Source: Ischnura elegans (Eukaryota > Arthropoda > Insecta > Odonata > Coenagrionidae). From it: a DNA stretch of 64,000 nucleotides. The stretch is from assembly GCF_921293095.1 (NCBI RefSeq), contig NW_025791691.1:1-64000 (forward strand), given 5' to 3'. The translations under genes and the position numbers were made by a program. Every line of letters begins with the position of its first letter. Positions within the stretch are counted from its first letter, which is position 1. Below are positions 6,741 to 63,996 of this stretch, piece by piece. The notes below the pieces were generated by a model. It ran no database searches, was not told the DNA's origin, and saw only the letters and a list, made by a program, of their open reading frames with translations.

Positions 6741-7094
6741 ATGGCTGTCCATAAAGTTACTTTCTTAAGTATATGCAACGGAGGAATAGTAAGAGAGGCG
6801 TGGGATGAATTTGAAGCTGGGGTAAAAGTTGGGGTAATGATGCTTAAATTAGTGAGCTAGGAATTCGAGAATCAAGGTAAAAGTAGGTGGGTGAACCTTG
6901 AGCAGACCTGCTCAAGGTTCCCCCACCGAGATCGTGTGTTCCGCACCGCAATTTTAGCTAATTTTAAACTAGCATCGATATGACAGTAACATTTAAGCGA
7001 CACTAGAAGGTATCATAATAACAAATTACATAGTGAACAACATTTACAGTATTTTGAAAAAGATAAAATATGTATACAAATTAATATACCTGTA

Positions 7095-7660: not shown

Positions 7661-8559
7661 GGTTGAATGCTTTGGTAATAGTAATGCCTTAGAAGTTATG
7701 TTTACGTGTTACATATGCACTAGTATAAGAAAATAACAGGTAAAATATTAGGATACCTTTTTAATATTTTTATTTGTTTTGATTTTGATCTTCATATTAG
7801 AAAAATTTAAACTTTGTTAGGAATGATGTTATTGATTCATTAAAAATAGTAGAAATAACGTGTATGAATAAATTATACAAAATAATTTTAAAATATTTAT
7901 AAATAAAATAGCATAACATAATTAGGAATTTAGCAAAGTAGACGGATAAAAAATTCACAAATATTCTTCAAACACATGTCTGCATTAAAGTTTTTAATTT
8001 AAGTGTATGTTTTTAAAAATGCAGATATAAACTTGTTCAAAAATAGAGGTACTTACTAATTTTATAGAAAAAATTAACCCTTAAACAGCGTAGTTTTTTT
8101 TTCGGAGTTTTATTTTGTTTTTCCATTAAAAACTGCTTAATTACCCCCGGAAGGATTCAGATAAACACTTAGTTTTAAAATTCTGTCGATTCGTTCTTGC
8201 TAGAGGGGGTGTGCCCATATGGGCTCGCTAGCTGTTCCGGCCACCGGTCTGCATTCTGCAGAAGAATCTCTCGAACCATCATAATTCTTATTTTTACTGC
8301 GTGATACGCCATATATTTTCGCATTTACCTATAATACTTCTTTTATTTGGCAATTTGAAGTAATTTCAAATCATTATACTATATTTTTTGGTTTAAACAT
8401 TTTTTGGCTGTCCAAAGATCTTAACAGTATAAAACTCAGATTTGAAAACAGTTATTGAATAAAAAAACACGTTATCGTTGAGTTTATTTACAAAATTAGT
8501 CCTATTTTGCTGGTAGAGTCTTTGAATACTATATATTAGGTTTTCAATTGCCGAGTATG

Positions 8560-13335: not shown

Positions 13336-13402
13336 GGGGGGGGGGGGGGCACAAGCAAGGCAGTATCCAGGATTTTGTTCTGGGGGGGGGGGGGGCACAA
13401 GG
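13336..13402. repeat. Duplicated poly-G/CACAAG segment
   Basis: Two runs of about 14 G, each followed by CACAAG, lie about 47 bp apart and enclose AGGCAGTATCCAGGATTTTG, which resembles the CAGTGGCGGATCCAGG termini of the hAT-type MITEs elsewhere in the window. It probably derives from such a MITE. It truncates the LINE at 13335. Confidence 0.45.
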
Positions 13403-13584
13403 GTACCTCGTCATATAAAACGAACGTAATGATAATGGAACCGTATTAAAAATCTTGCATATTTTACGGTCTGGGGGGGTTTCCATTCGTTAAATTTGTT
13501 ACCCTCTGCGTTGCCGTCCATGACGAGCCCAAAGAACTTGGTATCCAGCATCGTATACCTCGGTAAAATTGCTCCACGAATTTG

Positions 13585-28450: not shown

Positions 28451-28455
28451 TTGGC

Positions 28456-29412
28456 TATAACATATAGGATTTTACATCCAAGGACATAGATGACCAGGAA
28501 TTATATAGTAGATGACCATAGACTGGAAATAAAATCAATGTCATTGCGGATTTTACAGTACAGATGTCAGTATAATCGAAAGATCGAATCGATTATTGTA
28601 GTAAATGCGCAAATTGGCCTAACTTAAATAGTATATCCGATGGACCAATGAAATTTGGTGAATGGGTACATCTTGGTATTCCTCACAATTCCCAGTGGGA
28701 ATATGTTTTGTATGTAGTGTCACGTTCGATATATATCGAATATGCTTTTTCTTCAAATATATCGAATTGCTATAACATGTGGGATTTTACATCCAAGGGC
28801 ATAGTTGACCAGGAATTATATAGTAGATGACCATAGACTGGAAATAAAATCAATATCGTTGCGGATTTTACAGTACAGATGTCAGTATAATCGAAAGATA
28901 GATTCGATAATTATAGTAAATACACAAATTGCCATAACTTGATTACTTTATAAGTTGGACCAATGAAATTTTGTGAATGGGTACATCTTGGTATTCCTCA
29001 CAATGCCCAATAGAAATATATTTTGTATGTAGTCTCATATTCGATATATATGAATCTTCATTTTCCTAAATTATATCGATTTGCCATAACATTTAGGATT
29101 TTACATCCACGGGCATTTTTGACCAAATTATTAAGTAGATGACCATTAACTTGAATTAAAATCTACAGCATTGCGGATTTTACAGCACAGGTGGCAGTTT
29201 AATCGAAAGATCGATTCCATTATTAAAGCAAATACGCGAATTGGAATAACTTGATTGGTATATATGTTGGACAAAAGAAATTTGGTGAAGGGGTTCATCT
29301 TGGTATTCCTCACAATGCTCAATGGAAATATGTTTTGTATATAGTCTCACGTTCGATATATATCGATTCTACTTTTTCTTAAAATATATCGAATATGCTA
29401 TAACACAAAGTA
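28456..29412 (+). repeat. Tandem satellite array, three ~315-bp units
   Basis: TTTTACATCC recurs at 28470, 28785 and 29099 (spacing 315 and 314), and a decayed fourth start lies near 29413. Each unit also has a CATAGACTGGAAATAAAATC-like block, GCGGATTTTACAGTACAG, an ATCGAAAGAT...GATT palindromic region, and CATCTTGGTATTCCTCACAA, and ends at TCGATATATATCGAAT. A fourth unit is at 19055-20074. There is no coding capacity. Confidence 0.88.
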
Positions 29413-29678
29413 TTTTTCTTCCAAGCAGACAAAAATTTTCTACAAACATAGTGCGTTATATTTACTGTTAAACAAATGAACTGAGAATAGAAACCGTCAT
29501 AGATTATGCCTAAAACGTTAATAGTTGGCTAAATTTAACTTTAAGCATAAATATGTATAAATTTTCTATGTGTAGCAAGAAAAATCTTATAATTCACTGC
29601 GAGTGCGTTTATATATTAACCAAATAATATATTGTATTGCAATTATTTTCTTAAAGGAAACTGATTAATCAGCTATGT

Positions 29679-35199: not shown

Positions 35200-38130
35200 T
35201 TCGCTGTTGATAAGATATGAAGTCTAGTTACGATAGCACTTAAAACATATTCTAACACAAGGTTTGCAAAAATAGTCTTTACATAAACAATAGATCCCCC
35301 ATCCCAAGCTATGAGCCAAAAAGAGTAGCAATATTTTGTTACAGAAGCATATTGTTGTAACAACATGCAGCCTACTTGTAAAGTATGAAAGGTTTGCTGC
35401 AAAATTTACATTTATTTAATAATTGGATGGCAAGTTTACTAGGCCATGAGCCCTTGAAGTAACTGCTGTAGGGTTATGCATAAGTATTCAAACTATATTC
35501 AATCTTCTCTAATTTTAATTTTAGACAGTGAAGTTATGTTCATAATAAGTGATTTCTGAACATCAATTCAATTTTATGATGTCAATGAATACATTCTCAA
35601 CGGCATTACCTTTAAGACTCACAGTCCTCCCTATTACAATATCAACTACACTATTGACAGCCAGTATCACAATATGTTTCACCTTATATTTCGATGGTAA
35701 GGGCTAATTGGTGTCATGCAATAGGTTTTTGTATCTCTAATGAATAAATTTAAACTTAGTTCTGTCCCTTATTGAAATTTTATTTGCCAGAGATTATGGA
35801 TTTCATGAAACATATTGCTTCTCAACAGTATATCAACAGTAATAAATAAGATGAGATAATTTAAAGTTATGAAATATCTGCTGCTAGCTGACAATTATAT
35901 GGCTCAATTCTTTTTGTGTCTGTTACATGAGTGGCATATGCCTGAAGATACCTCCTTATTGTGAACATTTTAATAAAACTGAAAATGCTTCTATAAAATC
36001 ACAAAAATAATCAAAGGAATTACAATGAATTATTTATGAATTAATTATTCATAACAATGACATCTTCAGTGTGACAGAAGTCATTCTGCACGTTATCATT
36101 TATAATGAACACAGATTAATTTGTCTATTAGACGGTGGTTGGTTATAAATTCTGTTATTGAAATTATGGCCATGGTGAGTACTTTGAAAACAGGAAAGGC
36201 TTTGATTATTCACAACTTGCAAGGTGTTCTTAATTCCGTAAGGAACGCAGAGATGATGATATGATAGCGTAGGGGCCAAACTAACGCTAAGAAGATATAT
36301 CTTACTGCAAAAGTATGATTAAAATTTATCGTCATTGATTACATTGTAGCCACAAAATGTTCCTAAAATCGCTCTGGTGGTCTACTCAATAGAAAGCCAT
36401 TTCAATTGGTTTCACAATACAAATGAGAATCTTCGTTCCCGTGTAATAAGCACAAACAGGGTTAATTTACCACTATTTCTTGCAAAGGAACTCCAATTTC
36501 ATCCGATCCACAAATAGTCATTCATTATCTCCGTGTAATTTATGGCTTACTCGTATCGCAGCACTCATAAAATTAACACTTTTACTTACTAAATATTCAC
36601 AAATCGACGCGAGTACTTTTATTTAACGACACACAGATGATTGACCATATTAATCGTCAACGATTAAAACCGAAAATATTGGCTTCATCTTCATTTTTAA
36701 GGCTAACCATCACTTCATAACAAACGTAAACAAACCTTTCACCATACTCCACACTCGATTTTCCAATTCCGACTTTCGTTTGTTTCACTTTTCGCGTTCA
36801 ATTGTTGGTATGAGAATTATCGACTTACGGGTATTCTTTATTACCTACGTCACAGTATTTCGCTAAGAGAACGAAGTTACCCGAACTGTAGCGATAGGAG
36901 GAGCGAAAAGAACGAGAATAATCGCGGAGAAAATTTTCGCTACGCTTCGAGTTGCCGTAGCGAAGCGAGGACCCGAGCGAAGGGAGAACGAGAATCACCG
37001 CCCTGGGCAGGCATGGCAAGCGAAACTAAACTTATGGGTGTTCTATCCTAATTCAAAAATCCAAATTCAACCGTCGCCGGATTTTAGTTGCGAAGTCGGC
37101 CGCTACGGCCAGTGGAATGGGAAGCCTCCTTGGGTGGAGGGGAGTTGTCGCTGATCGAAGGAAAAAAAAGGAAAGGAGGAGGGGTCGAGCTTCGCTCCGA
37201 ACGAAAAAAACACCCGACGCTGTATCAAGTTTCACTGCGGAGGGCGATATTGAGAGTGGTCAGGATTCGGAGGTTGATTTTTGCTCTCTGGCGGCATTTG
37301 TCCCACCTCAGCCACTCGGTTGCCGTTTCTTGGAAGAATCCAAATACGCACGCTCTCGAAGAGGCTGGGAAGTACGGCCGGCTTCTATTAAGAAAGGCGA
37401 TTACTTGCATTGTTCTCTCCTTATGCACTCTCCTCGAAGGGGAGAGCTGGTCAACGTTCATATTACAAAATTTTTAAGCGCTATTCAAAGCATCGTAAAA
37501 GTCAACTACGCTAACCAAAATGCCCGTACTTCGTGAAATTTTTTTAAAAGTACAACTTTACATTTTTACGTTATTCCTCAGTATGAATGAAATTGTAATC
37601 ACCCACGTCCATTTGAAAACGTATATTCAATACAGTTACTTTCCGAAACATGTTTATTCAGTAATCATAGCGCTGCAGGGAGAACACTAATGAGACATAT
37701 GACAAATAATGAATGAACGAAAATTGATGTTCTATCATCTTTAATATTTATTGATTTATATGGTAAGAACATCATAAATTCCATATTGCATCAGACATCA
37801 CATACAGCTTTAATAAGGCCAATAACCCTGAATAGATCGCATCGAGTCATATTTACTTTTTCTTCGATGTTTTTTTTTTAAATGATGCCGTTCGAACTAG
37901 AGTTTATCTGGTCTCTAATTTCTTGTAATTCTAACTCTAAGTAACGTTTAATATTCAAAGTGTTCCCTAGTTTTGCTGCAACCGAAGTTTTGACCCGATG
38001 CGATCGAAAGTATGACAATTTATTCTCGCTTCCGATCCATCGTGAAGACGATTAAAATTCATTCGCTCGCATTTGGCTTGATGAAATCGCCGATTACTCA
38101 TCTTCCTGGAATACACCCATGTGCAAAAAG
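35200..38130. other. AT-rich stretch with one CpG-rich island, no confident gene
   Basis: The island at about 36830-37540 is richer in G+C and CpG. It holds an open frame on the plus strand (37117-37536, 139 codons, reading RGRASLRTKKTPDAVSSFTA and further) with no recognisable domain. It could be a promoter-exon region or a repeat. Outside it nothing was identified. Confidence 0.3.
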
Positions 38131-38157
38131 TGTGTGTGATGAATAATCAGCATTTCG

Positions 38158-38885
38158 CCTCTTTTTGCGCAGAAGTATTAGATATAATTGTGAAAATCAC
38201 AAATCTCTACTTTAATTATGTTTCTGGAAATTATACAAGAGATCGTGATACTAGGCAGTTGAGTGAAGATGAATAACTAGCTCTTATTAGTCTCCTTTTT
38301 CTCTTAGGTGCGTATAAAATTTCCAATGTTGATATTAGGGAGATTTGGAGCAAAGAAGTCTATAAGAAATTTTCCCGTACACTGGGCTATTTTTTTTTTC
38401 TACGGTGCATTAGTTTTTATGACCTTAGCACTAGACTAGAAAGTAAGAAAAGTGACTAGTAACCCGCAGTTACTGAGTTCATTAATAAAATATCCAAAAA
38501 ACTTGAATTTACTAATACACAATCAGAGTACATCACGATCCTTGATCAACTTATACCAATTCGAGGCCGATGCCCTGTAACGCAGAATCTATCCAAAAGC
38601 CAAAGAAATATGGTATTGAAGTCATTGCTGTGGTGGATGCTAGGAAATTTTACCTAAAAATTGAAATTTATATGGGCACGTAGCCAGATGCCCTTTCAAA
38701 GAATCCAATTCACCTCATGAAATTGTCTAACGCATAGCAGAGCACATTGAATGCAGAGGAAGAAATATTACCAGTGACAAATGGTGTACCAGCCTGCCTT
38801 TAACAGAAGAACTTAATCAAAAAAAGATTGGCTACAGTAAGGACGATAATTAAGAACAAAGCAGACGTTCCTCCTGAATTTCCCC
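38158..38885 (+). pseudogene. piggyBac-family transposase remnant, second lineage
   Basis: The plus strand shows NLYFNYVSGNYTRDRDTRQL, ALISLLFLLGAYKISNVDIR and EIWSKEVYKKFSRT (N-terminal half). Next comes LDQLIPIRGRCPVTQNLSKK, the family's DEQLVPFRGRCPFxQY block, with the catalytic Asp replaced or displaced. It continues with KKYGIEVIAVVDARKFYLKI, GRNITSDKWCTSLPLTEELN (family D-N-F-F-T-S carries the second Asp; here D-K-W-C-T-S) and, after a frameshift, TVRTIIKNKADVPPEF. Internal stops and shifts make it inactive. Sequence resembling a GC-rich MITE follows immediately after PPEF. Confidence 0.85.
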
Positions 38886-39488
38886 CAAGAAAAAATAGAA
38901 CCTTACATCATAGGCGAGAGGCAAGGGGGGGCGGGCAGCTGCCCCCTCTCCAGAAGCAAAAATCGCAAAAGTCTTTAAGCAAAATCAGTACTGAATTGAA
39001 ACGAAAGTATTCAACAAATTTTCTTTAAACCCACGAAAAATGATATGCATTAGTAGGTATAATATGTGTAACTAAAATAAAAATATTTTTTCTAGGAAAT
39101 GATATCATAAACTAATAATGCGCTGTTATAATTTTCTTAAAATATTTGTCTCATTCACCTTTTCCATGCTAAAATGTCACAACTTGTCTTGCGCCCCCTT
39201 CTACTAAAGACTATGGCTTGCCCACCCTCCCTAGTTATGACCCTGGGTATGTCCATGTCTTACATCCTTCCCTTTTTGGCTTTACTCCCGACATTTCCGC
39301 GTTGTAATACCTACGTTTCAATAAAATCCATGCAATACTTACTTCTGCCATTATCCATGACGCAAGTATTACTGCCTCAAGTGGTAACAAAATGCTTCCT
39401 GACATTATATCATTTTACAATACTATCAAGGGGGTGTGGATTCAAATGATCAGCTTTGCTCAAATTATAATTCCTTCGAATTCACGTG

Positions 39489-41883
39489 TAAAATGACCTC
39501 CTAAATCCGAATATGAACTCTGTTTTACTCCATCACCCACCATTTTCGGGGGAGCTCCCCCCCTCCAATTTTCATCACTTTTCGGTCATTTGGAGAAATT
39601 GAAAGGATTATTTTAGCATTTAAATTTTTTCTATGGGTTTTGAGGGGTGCAAAATTCTGAAAAAATAATATTAATGGTAAAGATGTAGATTTGAAGGGAA
39701 TTAATCTCCGTAAATTGTGTAATAACGCATTAAAATGACCAGTTTTGCCATTTTTTCGCAAATTTTCAAGTATTTTAAAACATTTCCAGCTTCTATTTCA
39801 CATCATCCCCCCGAAAGATAATAACACATAACAGCAAGGAACAGCAGTATTAATAAAAATATTTTGCTGTATAGCATAGCAACAATAATTAAAATATGTA
39901 GCAATAGCTCGGAAGATTCACTTTACTACACTGGCCCTCGCAGTGCCTCTCCCGCTCAGGCTTGGACGGCAATTCTCTTGATTTCGCAGCTAAAAAAAAG
40001 AAATGTAATACTTTCTAGTTCCACGCAGAATATAAAACTGAGATTTTATATTTTCATTGGATTAAAAAAGTATTCTTTCTCCTTAATCATGGAATTCCAC
40101 AAAGTATCAGCCTCTCAAATCAATTATGCATATTGAAGTTGGCATCATCTTCCCTCGGTATACCTCTTGTGATCGCAGAGTCAACTCTTTCGGTGTTCTG
40201 GACAAGGATATTTTTTTCCAAGTAATTTAAATAGTGCAAAACAGTAAAATACTTGGTCAAACTAATGTAACATGTGGCACGAAGTTGCGCCTATATGGAT
40301 GCCAATCTCTAACGAAGGGGCATAAAAATCTTTTCCTGTAGGACAAGAGCGCCAACACTGAAATTACTTTTTACGTTAGATGAAGGCTTGGTTTTTTTAC
40401 TGTAATTAAATGCATTGTTGATAGAAATGATGATGCCATGTGACCCAGAAAAATGGAGACTGTTTATGGATTCATCAAAGACAAGCTTTGAAGTGGTCCT
40501 GTTGGCCAATGGGAATGAGTTACCTTCTGTCCTATCTGCATACTCTGCTTTTATGAAGGATACGTCCGGAAATATCAGCCGAATCCTTGAAAATACTAAT
40601 TATCGTGATTATAATTTGTAAGTTTGCGCTAATCTGAAAGTTGTCGCTCTACTCACGGGACTGCAACCAGGCTTCACGAAATACTGCTGCTCCCTTAGTG
40701 AATACAACAGCCGCGCCCGAGAAAAACATTGCATCTTACGGAAATGGCCTCTGCGAGAAAGTCTCACCCATGGTTGTAAAAATGTTGCTCGTGTTTCTCT
40801 GGTTTCGACAGAAAATATTCACTTGCCACCATTGCACATCAAACTAGGACAGATGAAATATTTTGTGAAAGCAATCGACAAGACAGTAGCTGAATTTGAA
40901 TTTTTAACTAAAATTCCTTGTCTTAGTGAGGCTAAAACCAAGGAAGAAATTCGTGGGCCCCAATCATTGGAAACTTTTCCAAGATTCAACGTTTATGAAA
41001 CACCTGAATCATGAAGAAAGTCGAGCTTGGCTTGGATTCTGAAAAGTTTTAGAAATGTTTGGGTGACAAAGAAGTGATGATTATGTCGCCCATGTCGAGG
41101 AATTGCTGCCAGCGTATTAGGCCATGGAGAGTAACATATCACTAAAAATGCATTTCCTACATTCACACCTACCAATATTTTGGAGCAATTTAAAGTTAAC
41201 ATTGGGAACGGTTCCATGAAGATATCACCATAGGAGAGGAGATTTTAAGAGAAGTTGAATGCGGGCATGTTGGTATGTACATTAGGCCTACTGCTGGTTT
41301 ATGTAAGAGAAACTTCTACCTCAGTGTATAAAAGGAAATCAAATACCAAATTACTTATGTTATTTATCGTTCTTCACATTTGTTATTTTTCTCTTTGTTG
41401 ATGCGCATGTGACATTGAGGGCGCAAGCGTGGTAGCGTACCTTCTGAAATATTGGCACACATTTTTATTATTTTTACCATGTCGTGTTCATAAATATTTT
41501 TATCATTGCTGATACAAGCTGTTTATATACTTTTCCATCATTTTGGGATATTTTGGGTAGAGTAAGATGAAATGGGAGCTGAAATATGAAGAAAATAAGT
41601 CAAAAAAAGCGAAAAAAGGAAAGGTTGATGATTTTCAAAGTGTTTTTTTTTTACTCATTAACAGAAACTAATCCCCCTAAATGTAAATCCTTACCATTAA
41701 TCATCGCGTTTTAGAACTTTTCTACTCTCAAAAGCCAAATAAAAAATATAAATTCTAAAATAATCCTTTTCATTTCTCCAAATTATTGCAAAATTGATGA
41801 AACTTGAAGGGGAGCCTTCCCCCCAAAAATGGTGGGTGATGGAAGAAAACGGATGTCATATTCGGATTCATGTGGTCATTTTA
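39489..41883 (+). mobile_element. 2.4-kb element with ~300-bp terminal inverted repeats
   Basis: The left terminus (39489-39790) and right terminus (41578-41883, inverted) align along their length: TAAAATGACC, ATCCGAATATGA, CCATCACCCACCATTTT, a GGGGGAGCTCCCC-like stem, ATTTGGAGAAAT, AAGGATTATTTTAG, TTAATGGTAA and TTTC(C)AGC. TA at both outer ends may be the target duplication (the flanks otherwise differ), which would make AAATGACC the terminus. Between the repeats lies the decayed ORF described separately. Right next to it, outside, is the Mutator-like remnant (41925-42420, minus). The termini do not match a transposon superfamily I can name. Confidence 0.72.
40330..41265 (+). pseudogene. 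Decayed ORF of a conserved arthropod protein family of unassigned function
   Basis: In one frame from about 40415 the sequence reads PCDPEKWRLFMDSSKTSFEV and VLLANGNELPSV, one TAA at 40619, then NLKVVALLTGLQPGFTKYCC, LSEYNSRAREKHCILRKWPL, IHLPPLHIKLGQMKYFVKAI and CLSEAKTKEEI, ending at 41014. Farther on, in shifted frames, SLKMHFLHSHL-like and HWERFHEDI appear (about 41140-41230). I recognise this as a family found in many copies in arthropod and cnidarian genomes, typically annotated uncharacterized, with blocks like WRLFIDSSK, GDLKVV, LPPLHIKLG and GERFHQDI. The conserved acidic residues (D of DSSK, D of GDLK, E of GERFH) could be an RNase H-like catalytic set; that is inference. Here D of GDLK is Asn, so the copy is dead. 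Confidence 0.65.
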
Positions 41884-41924
41884 TATTAGAATCAGCAGGA
41901 ATGGTATCAGGGCTCGAGGATATT

Positions 41925-42420
41925 GTCTCCCTTTTCTGACGCAAAGCGACTGGTACCCTTCCCGTATTATGTTTAATTTCTTTGCGATTTCCCTCCACCT
42001 GTTGCAGTAGTTGCTCAATAAATGATTTATGCACTCTATACTATACTATACTGGGCAGTTGATACCGTAGGGTGGTACTTCAATCAATTTCTTCGTAACG
42101 CTGCCCTCGCCATCACCTACGAATGAAATTACAGTAATATAGTATCTTCCAGAGCAATAACACTGAATTATTCCGTGCCTTATATTATCGTACCAATTAT
42201 TCAATGATATTTTAATTCGCGCATCTTTATACCTGTTTTGAACCCTTCGACTAATATGTCAGCTTCCATTGCTGTCGAGGATTCGCTCCAATTTTTGTAG
42301 CATTGCTCTTTCACCTCCAATTTTGTATCCCTACTTCTCGCACAAATACAGCAGTATCTGTTCCTCACTTCAATAAACAAGACCTTCTGAGTTCGAAAGC
42401 CGACAATACGGGCCTGTGAA
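41925..42420 (-). pseudogene. Mutator-like transposase domain remnant
   Basis: On the minus strand, 42420 to 42215 reads ARIVGFRTQKVLFIEVRNRY, CCICARSRDTKLEVKEQCYK and NWSESSTAMEADILVEGFKT. After stops and a shift it continues as VGDGEGSVTKKLIEVPPYGI and VECINHLLSNYCNR-like pieces down to about 41930. These blocks match the Mutator-like transposase domain family (Pfam 'Mutator') of animals: the KVLFxGVRNKxCxxC zinc-knuckle, the NWxxxSxxMEADxxVEGF motif, GDGDSSV with a catalytic Asp, and NHLLRNYC. The open frame extends to 42632 without recognised motifs. It ends next to the TIR element's right end at 41883. Confidence 0.78.
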
Positions 42421-42669
42421 ATGAGAGAGAATTTTAATTTTAATGCTATCAAAATGCAGTTTAAAATAAAAAAAATTACATCCAATATTGTCCTACAGAA
42501 GAATCTCTCTCTTACTCCAATAGTAGATATTAATGCCGATGTGTTGACAAAATTCATCCTGCTACGTTTGGGCAATAGTAAACTTTGTTGGACTAGTATG
42601 CTTCTGAATATTTCTTCTCTTCTAGGTACCAAGGGATTATAGGTATGAAATCATAATTATTAGTCAACA

Positions 42670-43690
42670 ATCCTAAGATTGATTTGTCGCAGCTCTCCAT
42701 TCTTCCCTCCTATCCGCTAGCCTCTTTAAAGCGACATATGTCTTCCCTTTTGCATCCTTTAAAACCTGTCCAATGTAACTCATTCGGGAGCGTCCCTTGC
42801 CATTCTTCCCTTCCACCTGTCCTTCTATGATTTTTTTGATCGGGCCATCATGTCTCATAATGTGGACAAGTAAGTAAACTTCTTCTGCTTAAGGTTTTTA
42901 GAAGACTTATTTTTTATCCCACTTTCTTTGCACTCATTCATTATTTACACGTTCGATCAATTTTATATTCATCATTCTTCGGCAGCAACACATTTTGAAT
43001 GCTTCCACTATTTGACTTCTCTGCTGCTATCAACGTCTAAGCTTCACTTCCTTTGAGAATCATACTCCATATGTAGCATATGATGAATTGTTTCCTTACT
43101 TCTATGCTTTTATTCTCAGATGTAAGAAGATTCATCTTTTTGTAGTAAGCCCTCTTCGCCAGCGCTATTCTACTGACTATTTCTTTCTTGCTTCGTCCAT
43201 AGTTGGTAATTCAGCTTCCCTGGTAAGAAAACGCTTTCACCTCTTCTAACTTTTGATTTCTTAGCTTAATGTTTGTCCTAGCCTCCTCTCTTTTGCTCCA
43301 TACTAATATCTTAGTCTTTCTTTTGTTGATTTTCAACTGATATCTGGCCATATTCCTTTATATATTTGTCAAAGTCTTCTTAAAATTCTTCTCTGTCTCG
43401 GCTATGACTGCTATGTTGTCAACGAATCCTAGCATACTATTTTCTATCCGTTAATATTGACACCCAAAGCCTTCTCCTTACAATCACCTAAAATTATAAG
43501 GTTTTCTTCACCTCTTACCTGTTTGATTACTGCTGTGATATCTTCATAGACGCCTTAAACTTCTTCATCCTAGTAGTCCGTCGTAGGTATGTTAACATGT
43601 ACCACTACTATCTACCGGCTTAGTCTCTAGCTTTACCATAATTATCCTTTTATTTAGCGCGGAACCTTTTTCGATGAATTTCGATCGTAT
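42670..43690 (-). pseudogene. Internally deleted LINE (endonuclease end, RT end and C-terminus)
   Basis: Reading the minus strand from 43690: IIMVKLETKPVD and VIKQVRGEENLIILGDC from the AP-endonuclease domain. Directly after come SMLGFVDNIAVIAETEKNFK and MARYQLKINKRKTK from the late polymerase domain, where the YADD box reads F-V-D-N. The C-terminal domain ends in MRHDGPIKKIIEGQVEGKNG and YVALKRLADRREEWRAATNQ near 42680. The bulk of the polymerase is missing, indicating an internal deletion. Same lineage as the fragments at 6000-6740 and 52170-52930 (RTE/Jockey-like). Confidence 0.82.
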
Positions 43691-44326
43691 GCTCCTTATC
43701 TTTTACACAATTAACGGAAGGAGGAATATTTCTCGCAGTTTTTCAAAGTAAATTAGTAAAGGCATTAGAAATAATTTATCCCCTACGAAATTAAAGCGGG
43801 CCAAATGTTGGCAAAGTCGAATCCATTAGTTAGTAATCAGACATAGCTTAGTCCCAAGAAGATACATTGAATGAATTACACACAATTTGTACGTTGAAGA
43901 TGGTGTTATAGCATTGAAATCTAGGTCACATTAACTTTTCTTATAATCGTGGAAAATTGCAAGTGTTTCTTTCAATATGGAAAAATTCCGCTCCATCACG
44001 TTTGAATCTTCGGATTTTATTTGTAAGTTGAATTAAGTATATGTTTTTATGTAGAGCGTTTTGAAAATCATTAATCATTCTACCAAATAAAGTTGTTAAG
44101 CATGGAACGGCAACTAAAAATTATCTACCGTGTAGTGGTTAGAGTTATTCGTAAAAGAGGATATTCCTTCGTCGCATGCAAAAGGTTTTGTGCTCTCACT
44201 CATACAAAGTACTGAATCGAACAAGCAAATTTGTACGCAGTCACGCGCACGAGTGCATAGTTAAATACACTAGTGCATAGTTAAATAAGTATGATAATCG
44301 ACATGAAAAAATCATTTGACTAACCT

Positions 44327-44398
44327 GGGATTCGAACCCGGATATCCCCGATGGCCGGTCAAATATGCTACCACTTAAACCACGAAGCAACCTTTTTC
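44327..44398 (-). repeat. tRNA-derived sequence (SINE head), minus-strand member of an inverted pair
   Basis: The reverse complement contains TGGTTTAAGTGGTAGCATA (box A-like) and CCGGGTTCGAATCCCAGG (box B with most of a T arm). The acceptor stem does not pair, and position 50/64 of the T stem is mismatched, so a functional tRNA is unlikely. Confidence 0.55.
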
Positions 44399-44465
44399 CT
44401 TGAATATGAAATTTACTGACTCTTCAATGACTCTTTTAACTTGTGTCTAAGATTCGCCTAGAAAA

Positions 44466-44530
44466 TAATTACTTGGTAATGTTACTGACCGGCAATCGGG
44501 AGGATCTGGGTTTAAATCGCGGCTAACATA
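44466..44530 (+). repeat. tRNA-derived sequence, plus-strand member of the inverted pair
   Basis: ACTGACCGGCAATCGGGAGG then ATCTGGGTTTAAATCGCGGC aligns with the reverse complement of 44327-44370. It keeps a box B-like core (GGTTTAAATC). The two copies face each other across about 70-140 bp. Confidence 0.5.
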
Positions 44531-46938
44531 AGCGAAATGTTTTTTTTTTCGTGGCAAATAACAGTCTTGGTATATATGTATTCTCATTCATATTTAATAA
44601 TAGTGGGGTATAACAACTAAAATTCCCTTCGCAATTAAAAAATGGGAAACATATCAAGTACAAGACCTGACTTCAATGTAGGATTCCATCCCGGAAGGGT
44701 CATACAGTGTACTGAGGGGTAGAGAAAAATTGATCGGGTAATGCTCCTGAGAAATTTTAGTTTCTTCCCAATGACTACAACCGCTCTGCGGTGATGTTAG
44801 TGTCATTCTAAACTGAAGAACTTTTAATGAAATTACATTTAGTTGTCATAAATTTCTAGACGTATTATTATGCCGATTAATTTCAACAGTTAAATATAAT
44901 GAGTCTACCTGATCCTACGCACTAGTATTTTACATGAAGTCTCACATATTTATATCGCAATGTGGTCGTTAACTCTGGCACGAAATCGTAATTTTAGTTA
45001 ATAATTCGGTGGATGGATGGGTAAAAATTACTAACTACCTCGTTCAGTCATTCTCACTAAAATTAGCATTGAAAAATCGCGGAAGTTGCCGCCCACTTCT
45101 GAGAAAAGTTGCATTCATCATCAGAGTTTCGGTTCATTACAACCTGTAGTGAGAACCATTAATTGAGAGAATCAATCGCTCAGAAGAGTGTAAGCAGCAC
45201 GTGAAACAGGTTGTTGGTGAGAGATATAACGCGAAGTTAGTTTGCATAACTTCACTCGAGCGGAATAAATATCCCACATTCGAGTTTTATCCGCGTGTAT
45301 TGTTTGTTTTCTCGTCACTCCTGCTGCACAAGTAAAATTCTTGTCTTATACTTGTAAAACTGGTTCGCAGGTTCATTGGATCTCGTGTATCTATTTTTTG
45401 CTTACAACAAGCATATTTACGCAAATAGGAGATAGTTAACGATTAAATTCGGTCATCTAGACGTCATCGCTGTATTACATCGACCAAACATCAACCCCTG
45501 CTTAGTGATACGGTGGTTCAAGTTCAAATTCTTTCTTTTGCGTGACTCACGTAATGATTAATAGTAGTAATTTTAATAAATAAGAATATTTTTATAAGAA
45601 AATAACTTTTCGAAGTTTTCTCCCTCGGTTGCAAGTTATCGAGAAACATACATGTCGGAAATGCGAGACAAATAAACCAACGTGATGCTTTTCATATCGT
45701 GTTTTGATGACATAACGGTTACTTTTGAAAATATTTAGACACGAAATGAAGATATGCACGTTATATTACCTACTCGGTGAAATATTTATTCTTGGTTAGC
45801 GTCAGCAAGAACTTAAAAGGCAATGGTGTAACCTAAAATCTAATTGATAATGTGCAGTATATTCTCTATATTCATCTTATTTTCAATGCTTGGTTACAAA
45901 AAATTAATATATGATAGTCATAGCCAATACATTATCGAGAGGTACTTACTTTAAAGCAGTTTCTCCTTCTGCAGTGTAAATAACATCTATTGTTGCAGGT
46001 TTGTAAAGACTAAAATCGTTAAAATAATTTGATAGTCTATTTCTTAGCTGCATCACGTTTTTACAGATTTTACGTGGATGAAAATACGTGTCTAAAGATA
46101 TACTAACTGTTAATAATGTAGCACACTTAAAAAGGATTTATATATTCACCATTATTTCTAGTACTTCTTTTCCACCTTCCCACAAAAGATATGCTTCCTC
46201 TTTGATTTCCTTTCACTTTCCATGCATAAGAACAGAAAACTTGAAAACTCGCGCTAGCCCCGTTTCAAACATGCCGCTCGCAACACAAGAACACAGGGCT
46301 TCGGATAATAACGAAAAAAAAACTGTTGCCCGTCTGGGGCCCGACCACGGGTCAGACGGGCTTCTTAGGTCGAGGAAAGCATAGAGGAATAAAAACAGAT
46401 GTAGGGGACACAAGAGACGATGGAGGGGAGGTAGTAAGAGAGACTGCTGTGGGGTGAGAAGCTCTTTCTCCGAGAGTGGGGGATCATACAGCAGCGCCAT
46501 GGAAGAAAAGATCGTAAGCGCTTGACGTTGAGAAAACACGCTCGGGAAATTCAGCTACAGCGTGGTTATTACAAAGATTACATTGATGAAACGTATTTTA
46601 TTTCCAAGAAGAAGGACGAATGTTCTCATTTCCCGAAAAAAAAATTCAAATCGCGTTTTCTACGTGGCAGAATTACATCGAGAAAACAGGCGTTTTATGG
46701 TGTTTTTGAGCGCCAATAGCTAATTAACAAATGCTTTACAAATAATTTTTATTCGCTCGCCGAGAACAATAATCTTAGCTTAAACCATTTCCAAAACAAT
46801 TTTTCTCCAGAGTGTATAATAAGCGAGCAAATGGCGAGCAACCTGAAGCCTGCAGAGCCGTTTTTCGCGGAGGTATAGAACACCCTTAAGTCAGAACCAG
46901 TAAAATTTCTGGAGTTAAACCCGTGTTTGGTAATGTTT

Positions 46939-51340: not shown

Positions 51341-51429
51341 AATGATGGCCAAATACGCAACACAGCATATGCAACATATAAAAAATAACTTCTATGGCAT
51401 TACTAAAGTATTCAACCTATTAAGGTAGG

Positions 51430-51990
51430 TTTTCATGAAGCATTCACGAAGCATTCCGGCCCCGTCCCTTCACGAACTTCCCTCCTCAATTCATACTAGG
51501 GCCTACTCCCTTTCATTCTAAAAAAAATTCAAAGAATTCATCTAACAATCCTATTCTCATCCTTCCTTTCCCTCGTTTACCTAACATTCTACCCTTTTAA
51601 CTCAGCTTTTAACATCCCCTGCCCGCGAAGTACAATCTCCATCCATAACATTTGTCTTCTCCGTGTCCGATCAAAAAGCTGCCTATCATCACTCACAACG
51701 TCCAGCACTTCGTCGTCCCTTCTCCTCTGACTCCACTTCACCTTCTCCATTCTTCTCCACACCCACAATCTCGAACGACAGGAGGCCTCCTATCCTCCTC
51801 ATTCCCAAGTATTCATGTTTCCGTACCGTAAAGCGCTACACTTCAGATCTGATTCTTCACTAACCTTTCCTTAAAACTCTTACATGACGATGCTCTGATA
51901 AGCTCCTCCCTGTTCATGGACGCCTTCTTTGCTAACGCAATTCTCTTCCCGATGTCCTTACTCCTATATCCGTTTTCCTGTAATGGTCTG
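51430..51990 (-). pseudogene. LINE C-terminal fragment, copy B equivalent of 7095-7660
   Basis: It is the reverse complement of the fragment in copy A. The antisense open frame ending SKYSCFRTVKRYTSDLILH mirrors the copy-A shadow frame. Sense motifs (SVALFGTETW-like, RRRQMLWM-like) are partly preserved. Inactive. Confidence 0.68.
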
Positions 51991-52169
51991 CCTTAATAGT
52001 TAAATTGCTCTACCTGCTCAAGATTTCCCCACCTAAGTTTACCTTGATTCTCGAATTCCTAGCTCTATAATTTAAGCATCATTACCCCCACTTTTGCCCC
52101 AGCTTCCAATTCATCCCACGCCTCCCTTACCATACCTCCGTCGCGTATACTTTATAAAGTAACTTTATG

Positions 52170-52930
52170 GACTGCCATTCCTCACTACTCATCATAACCG
52201 AGACAGAGAAGGATTTTCAGAAGATTTTGACAAATATAAAAAGAGTAATGGCCAGTTATCAGCTGAAAATCAGCTAAAAGAGGACTAAGATATTAGTATG
52301 CAGCAAAAGATATGAGGCTTCGACGAACATCGACCATGAAAGCATAAGGTTGAAGAGATGTAAGAGTTTTCTTACCTGGTATGCCAAATTACCAACGATG
52401 GACGAAGCAAGAAAGAAATATAGTCAGTAGAATAGCGAAAGCTAAGAGGGCTGTCTAGGAAAAGAAGAATCTCCTTACAGCTAAGAGGACAAGCCTATAG
52501 AAGTAAGGAAACAGTTCATCAGATGCTACATATCGAGCATTTTTATCTGTGGAAGCGAGGCTTGGACGTTGACATCAGCAGAGAAGTCAAGAGTGGAAGC
52601 ATTCGAAATGTGGTGCTGCTGAAGAATGATAAACATAGAATTGATCCACCAAGTAAGTAATGAGAAAGTGCTAAGAAAAGTGCGAGAAAAGAGAAGTCTT
52701 CTAAAAACCAGAAGCAGAATCAGAAGACGGGATAATTGAATTGGCCTCATTATGGGACATATTGGCCAGATGAAAACGATTGCAGAAGGACAAGTGGAAG
52801 GGAATAAGGGAGAGGGATGGCACTGAAATAGTTACATAGGACAGGTTATATAGAATGTAAAAGAAATGAAATATCTCGCTCTGAGGAGGCTAGCGGATAA
52901 GAGAGATGAGTTCCAAAATATTATAAATCA
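52170..52930 (+). pseudogene. LINE ORF2 C-terminal fragment, copy B equivalent of 6000-6740
   Basis: The best preserved copy of this lineage's C-terminus. It reads RNIVSRIAKAKRAV, KKNLLTAKRTSL, KQFIRCYISSIFICGSEAWT, LTSAEKSRVEAFEMWCC, NEKVLRKVREKRSLLKTRSR, IGLIMGHIGQMKTIAEGQVE and YLALRRLADKRDEF in one strand with a few frame changes. These are classic post-RT motifs of RTE/Jockey-type LINEs. No polymerase core precedes it beyond a short YQLKINKRKT-like piece near 52250. Confidence 0.82.
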
Positions 52931-54094
52931 TCAGAGATTACGTAAAATAAATACTGCTTTTTGATTCCACGAATGTTACATGGGAAATTATGGATCTAGA
53001 GGACTCCTCTAAAGAAGATTGTATCTCCTAAATCAACCGTGTTGTAAGTACCACTTCAATGCAAAAATTCCCATTGCTTAATGCTAGTTACTAGAGTTTA
53101 CTTTTTTAGTTATTCCCTTTTACTATAAAACTGCAACGCTGCTATAACTTGGCATAGATTTTGGAGACAATAGTTAGCTTTTGTTTACATATTTTCTGGA
53201 TGTGAATGATAATACAGCTCTTTCTTAAAGCCATTGATTTTTTTCCAAAATGGAAATAATTTTTTTTCCCAAATAATCACGCATTATTTTATTTTCTCGA
53301 AAAGTGGAAAACACTTGGGTACGAAGGCGATATTGTTTCTTAAACGATTCCTTAAAATGTAACATTTTTATCCCCTTTCCTTCAATTTATTTGCTCCCTT
53401 AGCATATCCTTTTTTTTCTAACTTTATGCTGAGAGAACATACAAGCGTGAACAACACCCTTATGTTATTTCACTTGACTTACGCACCAAAAATGGCGCTA
53501 ATGACATATTTTTCTCGCCCTACCCTAAAAAAATAGCATGAGTAGGCACTATTGAACCACAATTGAAGGGAATACATAAAGGGTCGTCTCAAAACACGGA
53601 GACATTATTTCCTAGCCACCTTCACTCTTTCATTTTTTGCTTGTAGGTACGTAGTTACTGCTAATGTAGGAGAATATCGCCACTGATTGAAACACCTCAA
53701 AAACTTCAGTTGAAAATCATGTTTGTTAAAACACTTATAACTCGAGAACGGCTGCACTTATTTTTATAATTTTAGGTTCTTTGTATTCGTATCAGCCCCG
53801 GATAACATATAGGGCATTAAAAAAGGATAAATTCAGAAAAAAATCATCTCTTTCGTAGTGAAATGTTTTTAGGAGTAAGTAATGATACAACATTTGATAA
53901 GTCGGTCAAAACTACAAAAAAATTATTTGTTTTGTTTTTACCAATTTAATAACTGAACTTCGTTACAATATAATATTTTAATTACTAAACATATTAAAAA
54001 TATTGAAATTGTACATTAAAAATTTAATTCTAGCTAATTGTAAGCCCAGCTTGAGTGGACTCTTCACTACCGTGTTTGTTAACCAATCTCCAAG

Positions 54095-55190
54095 CAATTG
54101 TTGACAAACGGTAATGTCCGTGTTCCTGTTCAGGAGCCGAGGAGTTTGATTTCTCTTACTCCGAATACTTGCAAATTAGTTTCATCGGAAGGGGAGCTTA
54201 TCAAAAAAGTGTTCCAGAATATGATTATCACCACAAACACCAAAAATGGTTCATTGAGCGAACAATTACAACGGCCTAGATCGAAGATGTGGATGACTCA
54301 AACTAGGTACATCAGGATCAAATAGTAGGTGCTCTGCATGATTTCAAATTTTTAACGGTGTAACAAATGAAGAAGATATCACCAACTATCTATCTGAATA
54401 TTTTAAGTCCTTGGACGTGCCTGGCTCACCAAGGCACGATTTACAGCTAAATATAGGCTCTGTGTTCATGATCTTTCGAAATCTAAACCAACCAAAACTA
54501 TCCAACGGAACGCATTTGGTGATTTTAAAAAATTGATAATGAATGTGATTCACGCGACTGTACTCAAGGGAAAATACAAAGATGAGGAAGTTCTCATTCC
54601 GAATATTCCATGATCTCTACTTATATGCCCTTTTGAGCTTAAACGTATTCAATTTCCAAATCGTGTTGCATTCGTGGTAACAATTAACAAATCGTAAGGT
54701 CAGTATTTCAGTTTTTGTGATGTTTATGCTCATGTGCTAATGAAAACCCGTGATTTTCTCATGGTCAATTTAACGTGATAAGTTTACGATTCGGTACCAT
54801 CCGCTGTATTTCTTCCTTCGCTTCAAGGGCGCAGCTAGGAATTAAGGATAGGGGGTTTTAGACGCATCTAATACAACAGGTCTGTAGGATATAGAAAACT
54901 CGCAGGTAAGCGAGAGGTGTGGGGGCCCTCCCCCCAGATATTTTTAAGATAAATGGTTCGAAATAGAGGGTTTTGTGGCTGTGTGAATAGTTAAATATGT
55001 TTTGTTTGTTACACATCTGTTCTCCTAATATTAGTAACAAAAGTTTTTATAAAAAATTCTCTTAGCTCTGGGGGGGTGGTGTTTAACTCCCAAAAACCCC
55101 CCTCGCTGCGTCATTTCTTCGCTTCGCTGTACTTATTTAGCTTCATCCGCTTAATCTTTCGCCTGATAACAAAACAAAAACTGTTGTTTA
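54095..55190 (+). pseudogene. Helitron Pif1-like helicase C-terminus, split by a MITE
   Basis: Pieces in order: LISLTPNTCKLVSSEGELIK; DITNYLSEYFKSLDVPGSPR; LQLNIGSVFMIFRNLNQPKL; SNGTHLVIL; VIHATVLKGKYKDEEVLIPN; PFELKRIQFPNRVAFVVTIN followed by KS*GQ (family TINKAQGQS). After the MITE comes LSPDNKTKTVVYQKVL, matching the family's terminal DNKTKNVVYHKAL. These are diagnostic of the RepHel helicase used in rolling-circle transposition. The Rep HUH nuclease and the Walker A half are missing, and stops and shifts are frequent. Confidence 0.85.
54824..55116 (+). mobile_element. hAT-type MITE, 293 bp, inside the Helitron helicase
   Basis: It is flanked by a perfect 8-bp target duplication, CTTCGCTT (54816-54823 and 55117-55124). 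The left end CAAGGGCGCAGCTAGGAATT pairs with the inverted right end AAATGACGCAGCGAGGGGGG. Subterminal GGGGG/CCCCC blocks also pair. A related copy in the opposite orientation is at 58387-58818. Confidence 0.88.
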
Positions 55191-55719
55191 CCAGAAGGTG
55201 CTTGACACAAGACATTAAACCCGAATGAGTAGGGCACTCCGTGGTGCGTTTACGCATGCATCACGTTTACGCAGTGCATTTTTTCCAAACAGAGATACCA
55301 TAACTGGCAGGCGTAAATTCATTTGATACGAATGCTGCTTGATAGGGGCTTTTCTTACACGATTTTGAGCATCAGTCAATCGTCGTTCTGGCGTTGTGTT
55401 AACCTGCCCCGTGAACGGGCCAAGTTTACGCAACAGACTTGGACCTAAAAACATTTTTTAACGGTTAATAGCACAAATAGCCAACAACTTAATGCGTATA
55501 AGTTTTATTTCATTAACTGCTTTGTAAAACCACTCTGCTCAAAATTTCTTAAGCTATTTTGATACTCATTTAGGCTATTTTATTGAATTTGTGTACTTAT
55601 TTTATTATGATAAATTAAACATTATTATAAACGATACAGCCGCTCTTGATTTATAAATAGTGTAACTAAACTGTAAGTTCATTTATTGTTAGGCAGCACG
55701 AAATTCGCCAGGTCAGCTA

Positions 55720-55800
55720 GTTGTTTATGAATAATGTGGACACAGCATGACTGTACTCATCTCAAATAAAAACTCTTTCTCCGCCGCAAAAATCTTTCAA
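55720..55800. other. Helitron 3' junction in copy B
   Basis: CAGCTAG|TTGTTTATGAATAATGTGG: the bases after the bar match copy A (complement of 5195-5213). This is the diagnostic junction for the empty-site comparison. Confidence 0.8.
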
Positions 55801-56417
55801 TACCACAAGCGCGAAACAGTCACTCGTACGGAGTTTCAACTTGCCTGTCTTCGCATTTTATGCTGTGACGACACTCTTCGATGAGCCATGGCAATACGTT
55901 TCCGAGGAATATTCTGTTGAATTGCCTATTAAAATAATAAGTTTTAAGTTTAATTAGGAAACCTTCATCGAACATAATTGTCTTTGTGGTTACATGTGGG
56001 AAACTTACATGGCACACATGACCTACTTCTGTTTTTGAGGTAGATTATTTATTCTTAAAAAACGAAATGAATTCACTGGCAGCAGCACATTTGAAAAGAA
56101 ATGATCCTTACATTATGTTTAAGTTGTGCTTATTGTTCTCATGAATCTCCTACTGAGGAATCATCCAAAGTCGTTGTTTACAGTTGAGTCTACCTAAAAG
56201 CTTTACTCTTCCTGTGAATTTGTTTTGAATCTTCTGTAGAGGATTTTACTAAATCTTTGGTTAATTCTTAGGTCTAACAAAAAAGTTCACCATTTCTGTC
56301 GATTTGTTTAGATTAACGACTAAGGCAGTAAATGAATTTGTGGTAATATAGTTTAATACCCTACTAAGGAATATAATTAATTCGTTCATGATAGCCTTTC
56401 TACATAAAAGGTTTACT

Positions 56418-56920
56418 CAAGAAAATCTCAATTGATAAATGTTAAGCAATCAAATTCATTCGGTTATCTAAAGTCTCTGCGGCAACGACCATATTTTTAC
56501 CAAATGCGATAATGGATTAATATCCTTATCGTGATGAAGAACGAATTGGTTGATTAGGTATATCTCACTTACAATGGGAGTCATCAAAACAGATGAACAG
56601 TTTACTTAAAGAGATTTAATTCGTGAAATACCTCCACTAAATTATAACCTTCGATCTCTAGATGACTAAATTTCAAGATACAGGTCAGTGTTTTGCAATT
56701 TATCTGGATGTAGCATTATTTTTGAACTTAGAAATGAAGTCTTTGATTCAATAAAAATAGTGGAAATAACGTGTATAAAGTCATTATTCAAAATAATTTA
56801 AAATATTAATAAATAAAATAACATAACATAATCAGGTATTTAGCAAAGTAGATGCATAAAAAATTCACAAATATTCTTCAGACACATGTCTGGATTAAAG
56901 TTAGTATATGTTGGGAAGAG
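56418..56920 (+). repeat. Dispersed repeat related to 29850-30145 and 7790-8000
   Basis: 56418-56706 matches 29850-30145 in the same orientation (TTCATTCGG, CCATATTTTTACCAAATG, TATAACCTTCGATCTCTAG). From about 56735 the match switches to 7830-8000 (GAAATAACGTGTAT, AAAAAATTCACAAATATTCT). The two partial matches suggest one longer ancestral repeat. Confidence 0.6.
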
Positions 56921-57452
56921 CTGTTGTAGTAGATACGTTTGACTCTAACTTTTGGTGTTATGTGAAGGCTATTAAAAAGTTACTCCAAAAGGAGAGAGGC
57001 GGGATGCTAAAATAGATTTTTTGGGGGATTTTGATTACAGTATGAGACGAATCTTATTGCTTCCATTTGTACCAGATCAACTATTTTTATTTTTTTGAAA
57101 ATTTTTTGGAAAAGTACGAATATACAATTATGCATATAACTTCCACGAAGTGAGGTTGCTAAACAAAGATGATGATGTCAAAATTAATGTTAATTGTTAA
57201 TTTTACATCAAAATTAATGGTAACCTAGGTTGTGGCAATACCTTAGAAACAAAACATCAATAATTATGTTCAAAGTTTAGGGGTATGTCAAATTTTTTTT
57301 AATATTCCATTCTGTTCTTATATATATGTTTATATATACATATTTCTTTAAATTATATTGTATTAAAAAAATCAATTGTTCCTTTTTTATGTATAAATAT
57401 TGTGCATCGTCTTATTCTCTGTATTTTATATTGTTTCACACTTTTTCTAACT

Positions 57453-57495
57453 TAGCCCTGAAGATGTATTAAGAAAATTAATCGAAACGTTGGCT
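57453..57495 (+). repeat. Penelope-like terminal motif
   Basis: CCCTGAAGATGTATTAAGAA then AATTAATCGAAACGTTGG: a CTGAAGATG...CGAAACGTTGG arrangement as at other Penelope-like ends, with a potential TTAA-containing stem. Confidence 0.5.
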
Positions 57496-57978
57496 GCTAA
57501 CTTTTGTATAAATGACCTATACTGCAGGAAATACCATATTATATAGAGGAATTTGAGTCTGAATTTACAAAAATATCTCAAACTATTTTTTAAGGATACT
57601 GTTAAACAATTTGTTTCACCCATATAAATCAGTTAACCTATTAAAACTGTCGGGTAGAAAAGGAAATAACAGGTAAAATATTAGGATTATTTTTTTCATA
57701 TTTTTATTTGTTTTGATTTTTATCTTCATATTAGAGAAGCTGAAGTGAAAAAAGTATGTCTTATCAGTAACTGCAAAATTTTGATGGACTGAATAAGTAC
57801 TTCACGTATTTTAGTGCTTTCCTTGTAAGAGATTGTGTGTTCGGGGACTCATAAAAATACCCGAAATATAAGTAATTACAATTTTATTACCAACTTCTAC
57901 GCGCTTAAGATAAAAAATGCAAAATAAGCAATTAAGGTTAACTCTAACCTATTGAAGTTCTTTAAACATTGCTGATAT

Positions 57979-62035: not shown

Positions 62036-63793
62036 TCAGAGCCCAGCTTGAAACCTTTGTGGTTCCCTTGTCACCCGTCTGGGATATCGCATGGTCGGCT
62101 CAATAACCGCTTCAGCTGGTGGCTCCTCTCTCGCTGCCGGAGTCGCTTGGCCCTCATGTGTTGGTGGAATGGAGAAAAACTTCCATCCACCCCCTCCGCG
62201 GACGACAGGTTTTTCCCTCGCTGTCTCGGCCTCTCTTGGCCCATCTTTTGTCTCTTCAACTCCGTCCGTATTCTCACATTCCTTTTCCGTGTCTCCTCCC
62301 GGTCTTTCCTCCCACCTTTTGAGTCGGTTGAAGTGTACCACTAGGCGGCGGCGAGGATTATCTACCTTCTTCACTCGGTACGTGACCTCGGACAATTTCC
62401 GTATGATTTGGAAAGGAACCGTCCAGGGGCGATGGAATTTGCGACACTTCCCTCTTGCCGTAGCGGGATCGTGGAGCCATACCATTTCCCCTTCTTCAAA
62501 GGGTGCACCGTGACACCGGCGGTCGTATTGTTCTTTTTGCCGGAGGTGGGCCGACCCAAGCCTCTGCCGTGCGAGATCATGGGCTTTCTCGAGGCTCTCT
62601 CGCAAGCGTCTCACAAAGTCGCCTTCTTTCTGATGCGCCACCCCCCTCTGCACGTCAGGGATCCCCCACTCCAACTCAATGGGGAGGCGCACTTCCCTCC
62701 CAAACATAAGAAAATACGGTGTAAATCCTGTGCTGCTGTGTTTGGCCGACCGATAGGCTAGCATGACGGAATCCAAATGCTCATCCCATTCGGCTTCCTT
62801 CTCCGTCCACTGACTCAACATAGCTAATAATGTTCTATTGAACCGCTCGACTTGGCCGTCCGACTGCGGGTGGTAGGGTGATGTTCTTGTTTTAACCGCC
62901 CCAATCACTTTACACATCTTTTGGAATAGGCGGGATTCGAATTGGCGTCCTTGATCAGTGTGGATTTCCCGAGGCACTCCCCACCTGCACACGAAGCCCT
63001 TAACATGATGCGCCACAGTTTCCGCCTCTTGATTATGCATGGCGTACGCTTCGGTCCACTTGGTGAACTCGTCAGCGACCTCCAATATATATTTATTTCC
63101 TGTCTTTGTTTGAGGAAGTGGTCCTAAAATGTCCATGGAAATTATTTCCATCGGTCCTCCCGTCGGGCAATGACCCAGTGGTGCTCTTAGCGGGTGAGGC
63201 GGGGATTTCCGACGCGAACAATCTTCACACGTGCGGCACCAAATATCCACGTCTTTTGTGTATCCGGGCCAATAGTAGCGCTCTCTCACTTTACCTAGAG
63301 TTTTCTCATACCCTAAATGGCCTCCGACGGGCGAATCGTGCAAAGCCCGAAGAATTCCGTCCCTCGCCTCAGCAGGCACAATTATCTGTAAACGTTCGGC
63401 GTCTCTTCCTTCTTCTTCCCACCTTCGGAAGAGAGCCCCATCCTTAAACACTAGCCTATCCCATTGTGTCCACAAAGCCTTCGCCTTCGGGCAGTCACGC
63501 CTCCTTTCTCCCTCGGACGGCCGAATTCCTGCTTCGAGTGCTTCCATTACCCTTCTCAGCACGGGGTCTTTGCTTTGCCTGTCTCTCACGCTTTCACTGG
63601 GGGCCTCTAAGACGGCGTCGATTTCCGCTGAAATCAGCTCCCCCTCTCCCCGAGCGCACTGTTTACAAACAGACCGGGATAAACCGTCGGCATTTCCATG
63701 TTTGTTTCCCGGCCGATGCACCACTAAAAAGTCATACTCCGACAAAGCCAGCGAGCAACTTGTCCTTCCGGTTCTCGAAACGATCTCAACCAC
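62036..63793 (-). CDS. Gypsy retrotransposon pol: RNase H end and integrase
   Basis: The 585-codon frame begins in the late RNase H/linker region (SEYDFLVVHRPGNKHGNADG, residues about 18-37). The zinc-binding domain has H152, H159, C189 and C192 (HDSPVGGHLGYEKTL...CEDC). The integrase core shows D221 (ISMDILGP), D280 (IHTDQGRQFES) and E316 (GQVERFNRTLL), a complete DDE triad with 35 residues between D280 and E316. PWTVPFQIIRKLSEVTYRVK forms the C-terminal GPY/F-like module, and no chromodomain is seen. It integrates the reverse-transcribed element. The frame is open to its natural stop and is the best preserved TE gene in the window. A small deletion near 63738-63745 separates it from the upstream RNase H frame. 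Confidence 0.95.
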   Translation of the reverse strand: MVEIVSRTGRTSCSLALSEYDFLVVHRPGNKHGNADGLSRSVCKQCARGEGELISAEIDAVLEAPSESVRDRQSKDPVLRRVMEALEAGIRPSEGERRRDCPKAKALWTQWDRLVFKDGALFRRWEEEGRDAERLQIIVPAEARDGILRALHDSPVGGHLGYEKTLGKVRERYYWPGYTKDVDIWCRTCEDCSRRKSPPHPLRAPLGHCPTGGPMEIISMDILGPLPQTKTGNKYILEVADEFTKWTEAYAMHNQEAETVAHHVKGFVCRWGVPREIHTDQGRQFESRLFQKMCKVIGAVKTRTSPYHPQSDGQVERFNRTLLAMLSQWTEKEAEWDEHLDSVMLAYRSAKHSSTGFTPYFLMFGREVRLPIELEWGIPDVQRGVAHQKEGDFVRRLRESLEKAHDLARQRLGSAHLRQKEQYDRRCHGAPFEEGEMVWLHDPATARGKCRKFHRPWTVPFQIIRKLSEVTYRVKKVDNPRRRLVVHFNRLKRWEERPGGDTEKECENTDGVEETKDGPREAETAREKPVVRGGGGWKFFSIPPTHEGQATPAAREEPPAEAVIEPTMRYPRRVTREPQRFQAGL

Positions 63794-63996
63794 TGTAGGG
63801 AATTATGATCGGTGCGCACCACAAACCGTTTGCCTAATAAATATTGGCGAAAATGGTGGGTAGAATTTACTACCGCCAAAAGTTCACGCCTCGTCACACA
63901 ATATTGTTTTTCGGCACGTGAGAGCGTCCGACTATAATAGGCCACAACCCTTTCCTCACCTTCCTGTCTCTGGCTGAGTACGGCCCTGATAACCAT
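63724..63996 (-). pseudogene. Gypsy RNase H domain (continues beyond the right edge)
   Basis: Reads ERVVAYYSRTLSRAEKQYCV, TRRELLAVVNSTHHFRQYLL, FVVRTDHNSLQWLRSF and EGQVARWLC, the central and C-terminal RNase H region of Gypsy/Ty3 pol (E of the RELLA block and D of RTDH visible). The frame then ends RSMTF-stop, while the integrase frame starts in another phase with LSEYDFLV. A RWL..LSEYDF continuity is expected, so a short deletion of non-multiple-of-three size disrupts pol. The reverse transcriptase and gag lie beyond 64000. Confidence 0.85.

Follow-up and report, generated by a model that had tools for sequence, protein, structure and literature searches.

What kind of element occupies the region around positions 39489..41883 of the window, a 64,000-nucleotide stretch (positions 1 to 64,000) of contig NW_025791691.1 of the odonate Ischnura elegans, where inverted termini flank a single decayed open reading frame (ORF)? 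The first-pass annotation, made from the letters of the window, had proposed an undescribed transposon family of no nameable superfamily. However, a known group fits in its ends and motifs, in the duplicated target, and in length and fold, and with a probability of roughly 93% we read the element as a Chapaev3 (CMC group) cut-and-paste transposon, now dead and carried as a passenger within a 9.85-kb element that targets TTAA. The group itself is already described.

Chapaev3 (Merrow, Garfield, Conan) was described in Repbase Reports in 2008 (cited in PMC4411706). Its published hallmarks are CAC..GTG ends, a TWA target duplication upon insertion between A and T, and a transposase with C(2)C, LH and H(4)H motifs (PMC4079192). 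Searching this genome at the protein level yielded 97 matches, with 93 of 3567 candidates scored; several have open frames of about 570 amino acids (aa), and the intact relatives belong to subfamilies that we call A, B and C. In subfamily A, three copies with unrelated flanks (L029, L030 and L031) are 99.9-100% identical over 2584-2589 bp, start with CACTGTTCAACAA and finish with its imperfect inverse, forming a 13-bp imperfect terminal repeat around a single 568-aa ORF; CACTG..CAGTG ends are present in 6/6 copies of this subfamily. The target duplications of these three copies are TAA, TTA and TAA, respectively, and TTA in three further A copies, the insertion falling between A and T (3' T in 6/6, 5' A in 5/6, with G in L029). 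Furthermore, L031 is inserted in a 315-bp satellite, whose adjacent units display the empty site. An array of 315-bp satellite, 79-86% identical to the one hosting L031, is also present in the window at 28454-29425.

Subfamily B has 315-bp terminal inverted repeats, 93-97% identical between copies, and its 482-aa open frame starts with MNFAVP; the open frame of subfamily C is 478 aa long. Copies of both have CAC..GTG ends, except L038, whose right end is ATG. Duplications in subfamily B are TTA (L038, L058, L060), TAA (L039), CAA (L044) and TTC (L059); L045 has no 3-bp repeat and a 7-bp match, TTATAAT, on both sides, and the A-and-T context is inconstant, L038 having C on the 3' side. In subfamily C, TAA was found in L040 and L043, TTT in L042 and no repeat in L041. 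Taken together, a 3-bp repeat flanks 15 of the 17 insertions and TWA 12 of the 17, a result that replaces the TA duplication suggested at first. The stop-free L058-L060 had been considered as intact copies of the window's own subfamily and proved to be subfamily B. The first-pass annotation had named other copies of the ORF lacking the window termini as evidence against its proposal: such copies do occur, with the 13-bp ends of A or the different 315-bp repeats of B, but they are other subfamilies and therefore leave the transposase function standing.

A second protein search returned 2235 matches at E ≤ 1e-3, and the source names among the 120 listed are only 'hypothetical' or 'uncharacterized'; the motif LPPLHIKLG was found in no literature searched, whose titles and abstract openings give the family no other name. 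In an alignment of 64 family members, the DDE triad and the C(2)C, LH and H(4)H motifs of Chapaev3 are all present: D259, D313, C332, C335 and L380-H381 are found in 64/64 rows, and H489, H494, E508 and E511 in all 62 rows with letters there, confirming the expected invariance of the acidic residues. A further trait of Chapaev3 is an N-terminal Chapa zinc domain; in the N-terminal part of the present family, cysteines are conserved (C13 and C16 in 45/45 and C93 and C96 in 60/60 rows with letters) and the Pfam matches are only weak, namely zf-AD in 4/64 members (best E 0.0033) and RAG1_imp_bd in 2/64 (best E 0.32); no Pfam match better than E 0.0033 was obtained across the 64 members. In PDB searches by sequence, the ORF fragment had no match and the family profile a single weak one (E 0.78). 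The predicted fold is RNase H-like and most closely resembles RAG1 and Transib (PDB 6pqx, 6xnx), no non-nuclease fold being found. A viral origin was rejected because no viral structure matched the predicted model at E ≤ 1e-3. These 'uncharacterised' proteins resemble transposases built on an RNase H-like D-D-E core, as the first reading had supposed, and a large set of unnamed proteins could be named after Chapaev3. In the family tree, a lamprey protein and two turtle proteins group with support of 100/100, the path joining them amounting to about 0.2 changes per column, and horizontal transfer could explain this closeness.

Should the family be assigned to Chapaev3 proper, or to a wider relative in the CMCT clade, on the Transib or EnSpm side? 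The lineages of this clade, Chapaev3 included, have C(2)C and H(3-4)H in common, their ends being mostly CA..TG (PMC12730594), and the best structural matches of the model, RAG1 and Transib, would suit such a relative as well. On the other hand, the duplication is TWA and not, as is typical of Transib, 5 bp long (PMC4411706), and LH and H(4)H together with an ORF of 478-482 aa in B and C, like a second exon, suit Chapaev3. The same holds for the hosts, since lampreys appear in the table and the leech Helobdella in the tree legend of the Chapaev3 description (PMC4079192), and lamprey and Helobdella proteins are among the family matches listed here. A position outside Chapaev3 proper is, in our opinion, improbable.

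In the window itself, the paired arms noted by the first-pass annotation are real, but they measure about 480 bp instead of about 300, and the true ends lie at neither 39489 nor 41883. By BLASTN and local alignment, the left arm (39470..39945, + strand, its outermost tens of bases being unrecognisable) and the right arm (41413..41903, - strand) are 73% identical over 339 columns (E 6e-48), with no further match to the arms elsewhere within the window at E ≤ 1e-3. Between them, the ORF changes frame twice, running through three frames in all, and is interrupted by four stops. The frame 2 fragment (40406..40951, + strand) has one stop (40619-40621); it keeps the first D (FMDSSK) and LH (LPPLHIKLG), whereas the second D reads N (CANLKV) and the C(2)C site reads CCSLS. 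The frame 3 fragment (40950..41192, + strand) has three stops and keeps H(4)H (MHFLHSH), and the stop-free frame 1 fragment (41200..41304, + strand) keeps the block around the catalytic E (HWERFHEDI). About 220 bp that hold an N-terminal part of the ORF and are kept in a copy described below (L057) are gone at 40247..40249. Read through its lesions, the ORF has 517 candidate matches, of which 127 proteins reach E ≤ 1e-3; the best is 64% identical, with a spider (Araneus), a beetle, an ant, a fly, turtles, a lamprey and fish among the named hosts listed, and none of the 120 best matches has a Pfam domain. The ORF is indeed a decayed member of an uncharacterised protein family, and the copy in the window, which has suffered internal deletion, is dead and has lost its activity.

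Although a single copy is visible in the window, a search of the 1.72-Gb genome with the left arm gave 40 scored matches from 898 candidates, including the window, the other 39 being 92-96% identical to it. Among 20 of these 39 loci, examined over 7.8-9.0 kb each, nine have both arms with ORF remains between them, the recurrence that the first-pass annotation had proposed to look for; seven are arm-to-arm forms of about 0.85 kb and four have one arm (L009, L013, L015 and L028). In the 19 loci that could be oriented (all but L019), leftward homology reaches about 37.5-38.0 kb or further in 18 (in L023 just to 39404), and rightward homology continues past the arm in 18 (the exception being L009). 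Since homology extends beyond both arms, these loci are copies of a larger repeat. Its right boundary lies at 46889-46896 in seven of the nine loci set against the whole window (L009 has no right flank and L027 ends at 43645), and in the window it corresponds to a host element of 9,850 bp, 37036..46885, with ends GGGTGTTCTAT...ATAGAACACCC, which holds the entire Chapaev3 copy. This host element has TTAT on its left, one change from TTAA, and TTAA on its right; among its other copies, TTAA is found at 9/10 left ends and at 7/8 right ends found; for the eighth, L024, the match was stray and a separate reading gave TTAA. Since the Chapaev3 copy is nested in it, the copies sharing the arm are uninformative on the movement of the inner element.

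TTAA is the target of piggyBac and Kolobok transposons. The likeness of the host element to them consists of its TTAA flanks, and only short open frames were seen in it, with no recognisable transposase, although no search for one, of either type, was made. A 149-aa open frame with a Mutator match (Pfam PF20700, E 1.2e-17) is present within it at 42204-42650 (- strand), a segment missing from several sibling copies. It is conceivable, even if unlikely, that the element with GGGTGTTCTAT ends represents an undescribed TTAA family that took up Chapaev3 at an early stage and spread its arms over many loci. Parts of it could then still be substrates of a live Chapaev3 transposase, and the 0.85-kb arm-to-arm forms within some copies would perhaps be traces of this.

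The sibling copies show where the inner element ended on the right. Just past window position 41918, outside the arm, all eight siblings displayed keep a stretch of about 67-78 bp including the CAGTG right end, GTCCAGTG, followed by TTA, which is deleted in the window at 41918..41919; several other siblings, L010 included, also lack it through a different deletion. On the left, two candidate ends were compared with the right end: CACTGGGC at 38380..38387 (+ strand), whose score was equalled by 148/2000 shuffles, and one near 39434 (319/2000). Neither exceeds chance and neither was accepted.

A further copy, L057, lies outside the host element and is independent of it. It is 87-88% identical to the window from 39470 to 41918 and not outside, its flanks are unrelated, and its homology begins at the very base where the left arm does; it begins CACA and finishes TGTG, with TAA on the right. 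It keeps the N-terminal segment missing from the window (residues 23-68 of P0004) and lacks residues 69-195. L056, a rearranged copy, was left out of the comparison. The same arms between unrelated flanks indicate, at the level of sequence, that the long arms belong to the Chapaev3 element. This bears on the alternative, raised at the outset, that an unrelated element owns the arms and has captured the ORF as cargo. It is true that the whole 2.4-kb unit rides in the TTAA element, but L057, the sole independent copy found, has arms and ORF between CACA..TGTG ends elsewhere, and the CAGTG end with TTA lies just beyond the arm in the eight siblings; arms foreign to the ORF are very improbable. 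Least probable of all is an undescribed superfamily with long terminal repeats and a TA duplication, which could appeal to the lack of better Pfam matches and to the window arms, matching 0/11 A-C copies tested at the DNA level, where coding stretches alone match, whereas the ends, the motifs, the TWA duplication and the size and fold of the protein agree with Chapaev3 and the 315-bp repeats of subfamily B make long termini not foreign to the family.

Some observations weigh against the assignment to Chapaev3. The window copy has no demonstrable target duplication, its right end being deleted and its left end unfixed, and L057 has no clean 3-bp repeat. Among the intact relatives, non-TWA repeats (TTT, CAA, TTC) occur at 3/17 insertions, and a matching repeat is missing in 2/17 (L041 and L045). 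Moreover, the membership would rest on ends, target, motifs, size and fold compared with published descriptions and not with Repbase sequences.

Intact relatives encode one RAG1/Transib-like transposase that, by analogy with the family, would bind the CACTG ends, excise the element through its D-D-E site and insert it at TWA, duplicating those 3 bp; the ends, the duplication and one empty site were observed. The window copy lost this activity, and the copies found by its arm multiplied as passenger DNA within the 9.85-kb TTAA-targeting element. Since the genome contains intact copies that are almost identical, and an empty site is visible for one of them, a cousin of RAG1 is open to testing, and the locus also illustrates that an inverted repeat and an ORF within one window can mislead if they are nested in a larger element.

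Other repeats were noticed in the window. Long inverted repeats, in pieces of up to 1.7 kb with 83-87% identity, pair 4425-8084 with 51365-57876, about 45 kb apart, and retroelement frames lie at 12014-13418 and 62039-63802, comprising reverse-transcriptase frames (RVT_1) and a long frame with integrase domains (Integrase_H2C2, rve).

Compared with known systems, the relatives in this genome share with Chapaev3 the CAC..GTG ends, the 3-bp, mostly TWA duplication and the C(2)C/LH/H(4)H motifs. Published full-length transposases are 461-562 aa long in one exon, or are encoded by two exons, the second of which spans 477-484 aa (PMC4079192); the single 568-aa ORF of subfamily A is close to the former, and those of B and C resemble the second exon. 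The elements, 2.6-3.0 kb here, compare with 1.9-2.5 kb for published full-length ones (PMC4079192), whereas the window subfamily differs in its arms of about 480 bp, its copy being broken, without ends and N-terminus. From Transib and RAG1 they differ in the 3-bp instead of 5-bp duplication and in the low identity (13-14% over the aligned fold), but the predicted fold is alike, in agreement with the placement of Chapaev3 in the Transib/RAG1 superfamily (PMC4411706) and in the CMCT clade (PMC12730594).
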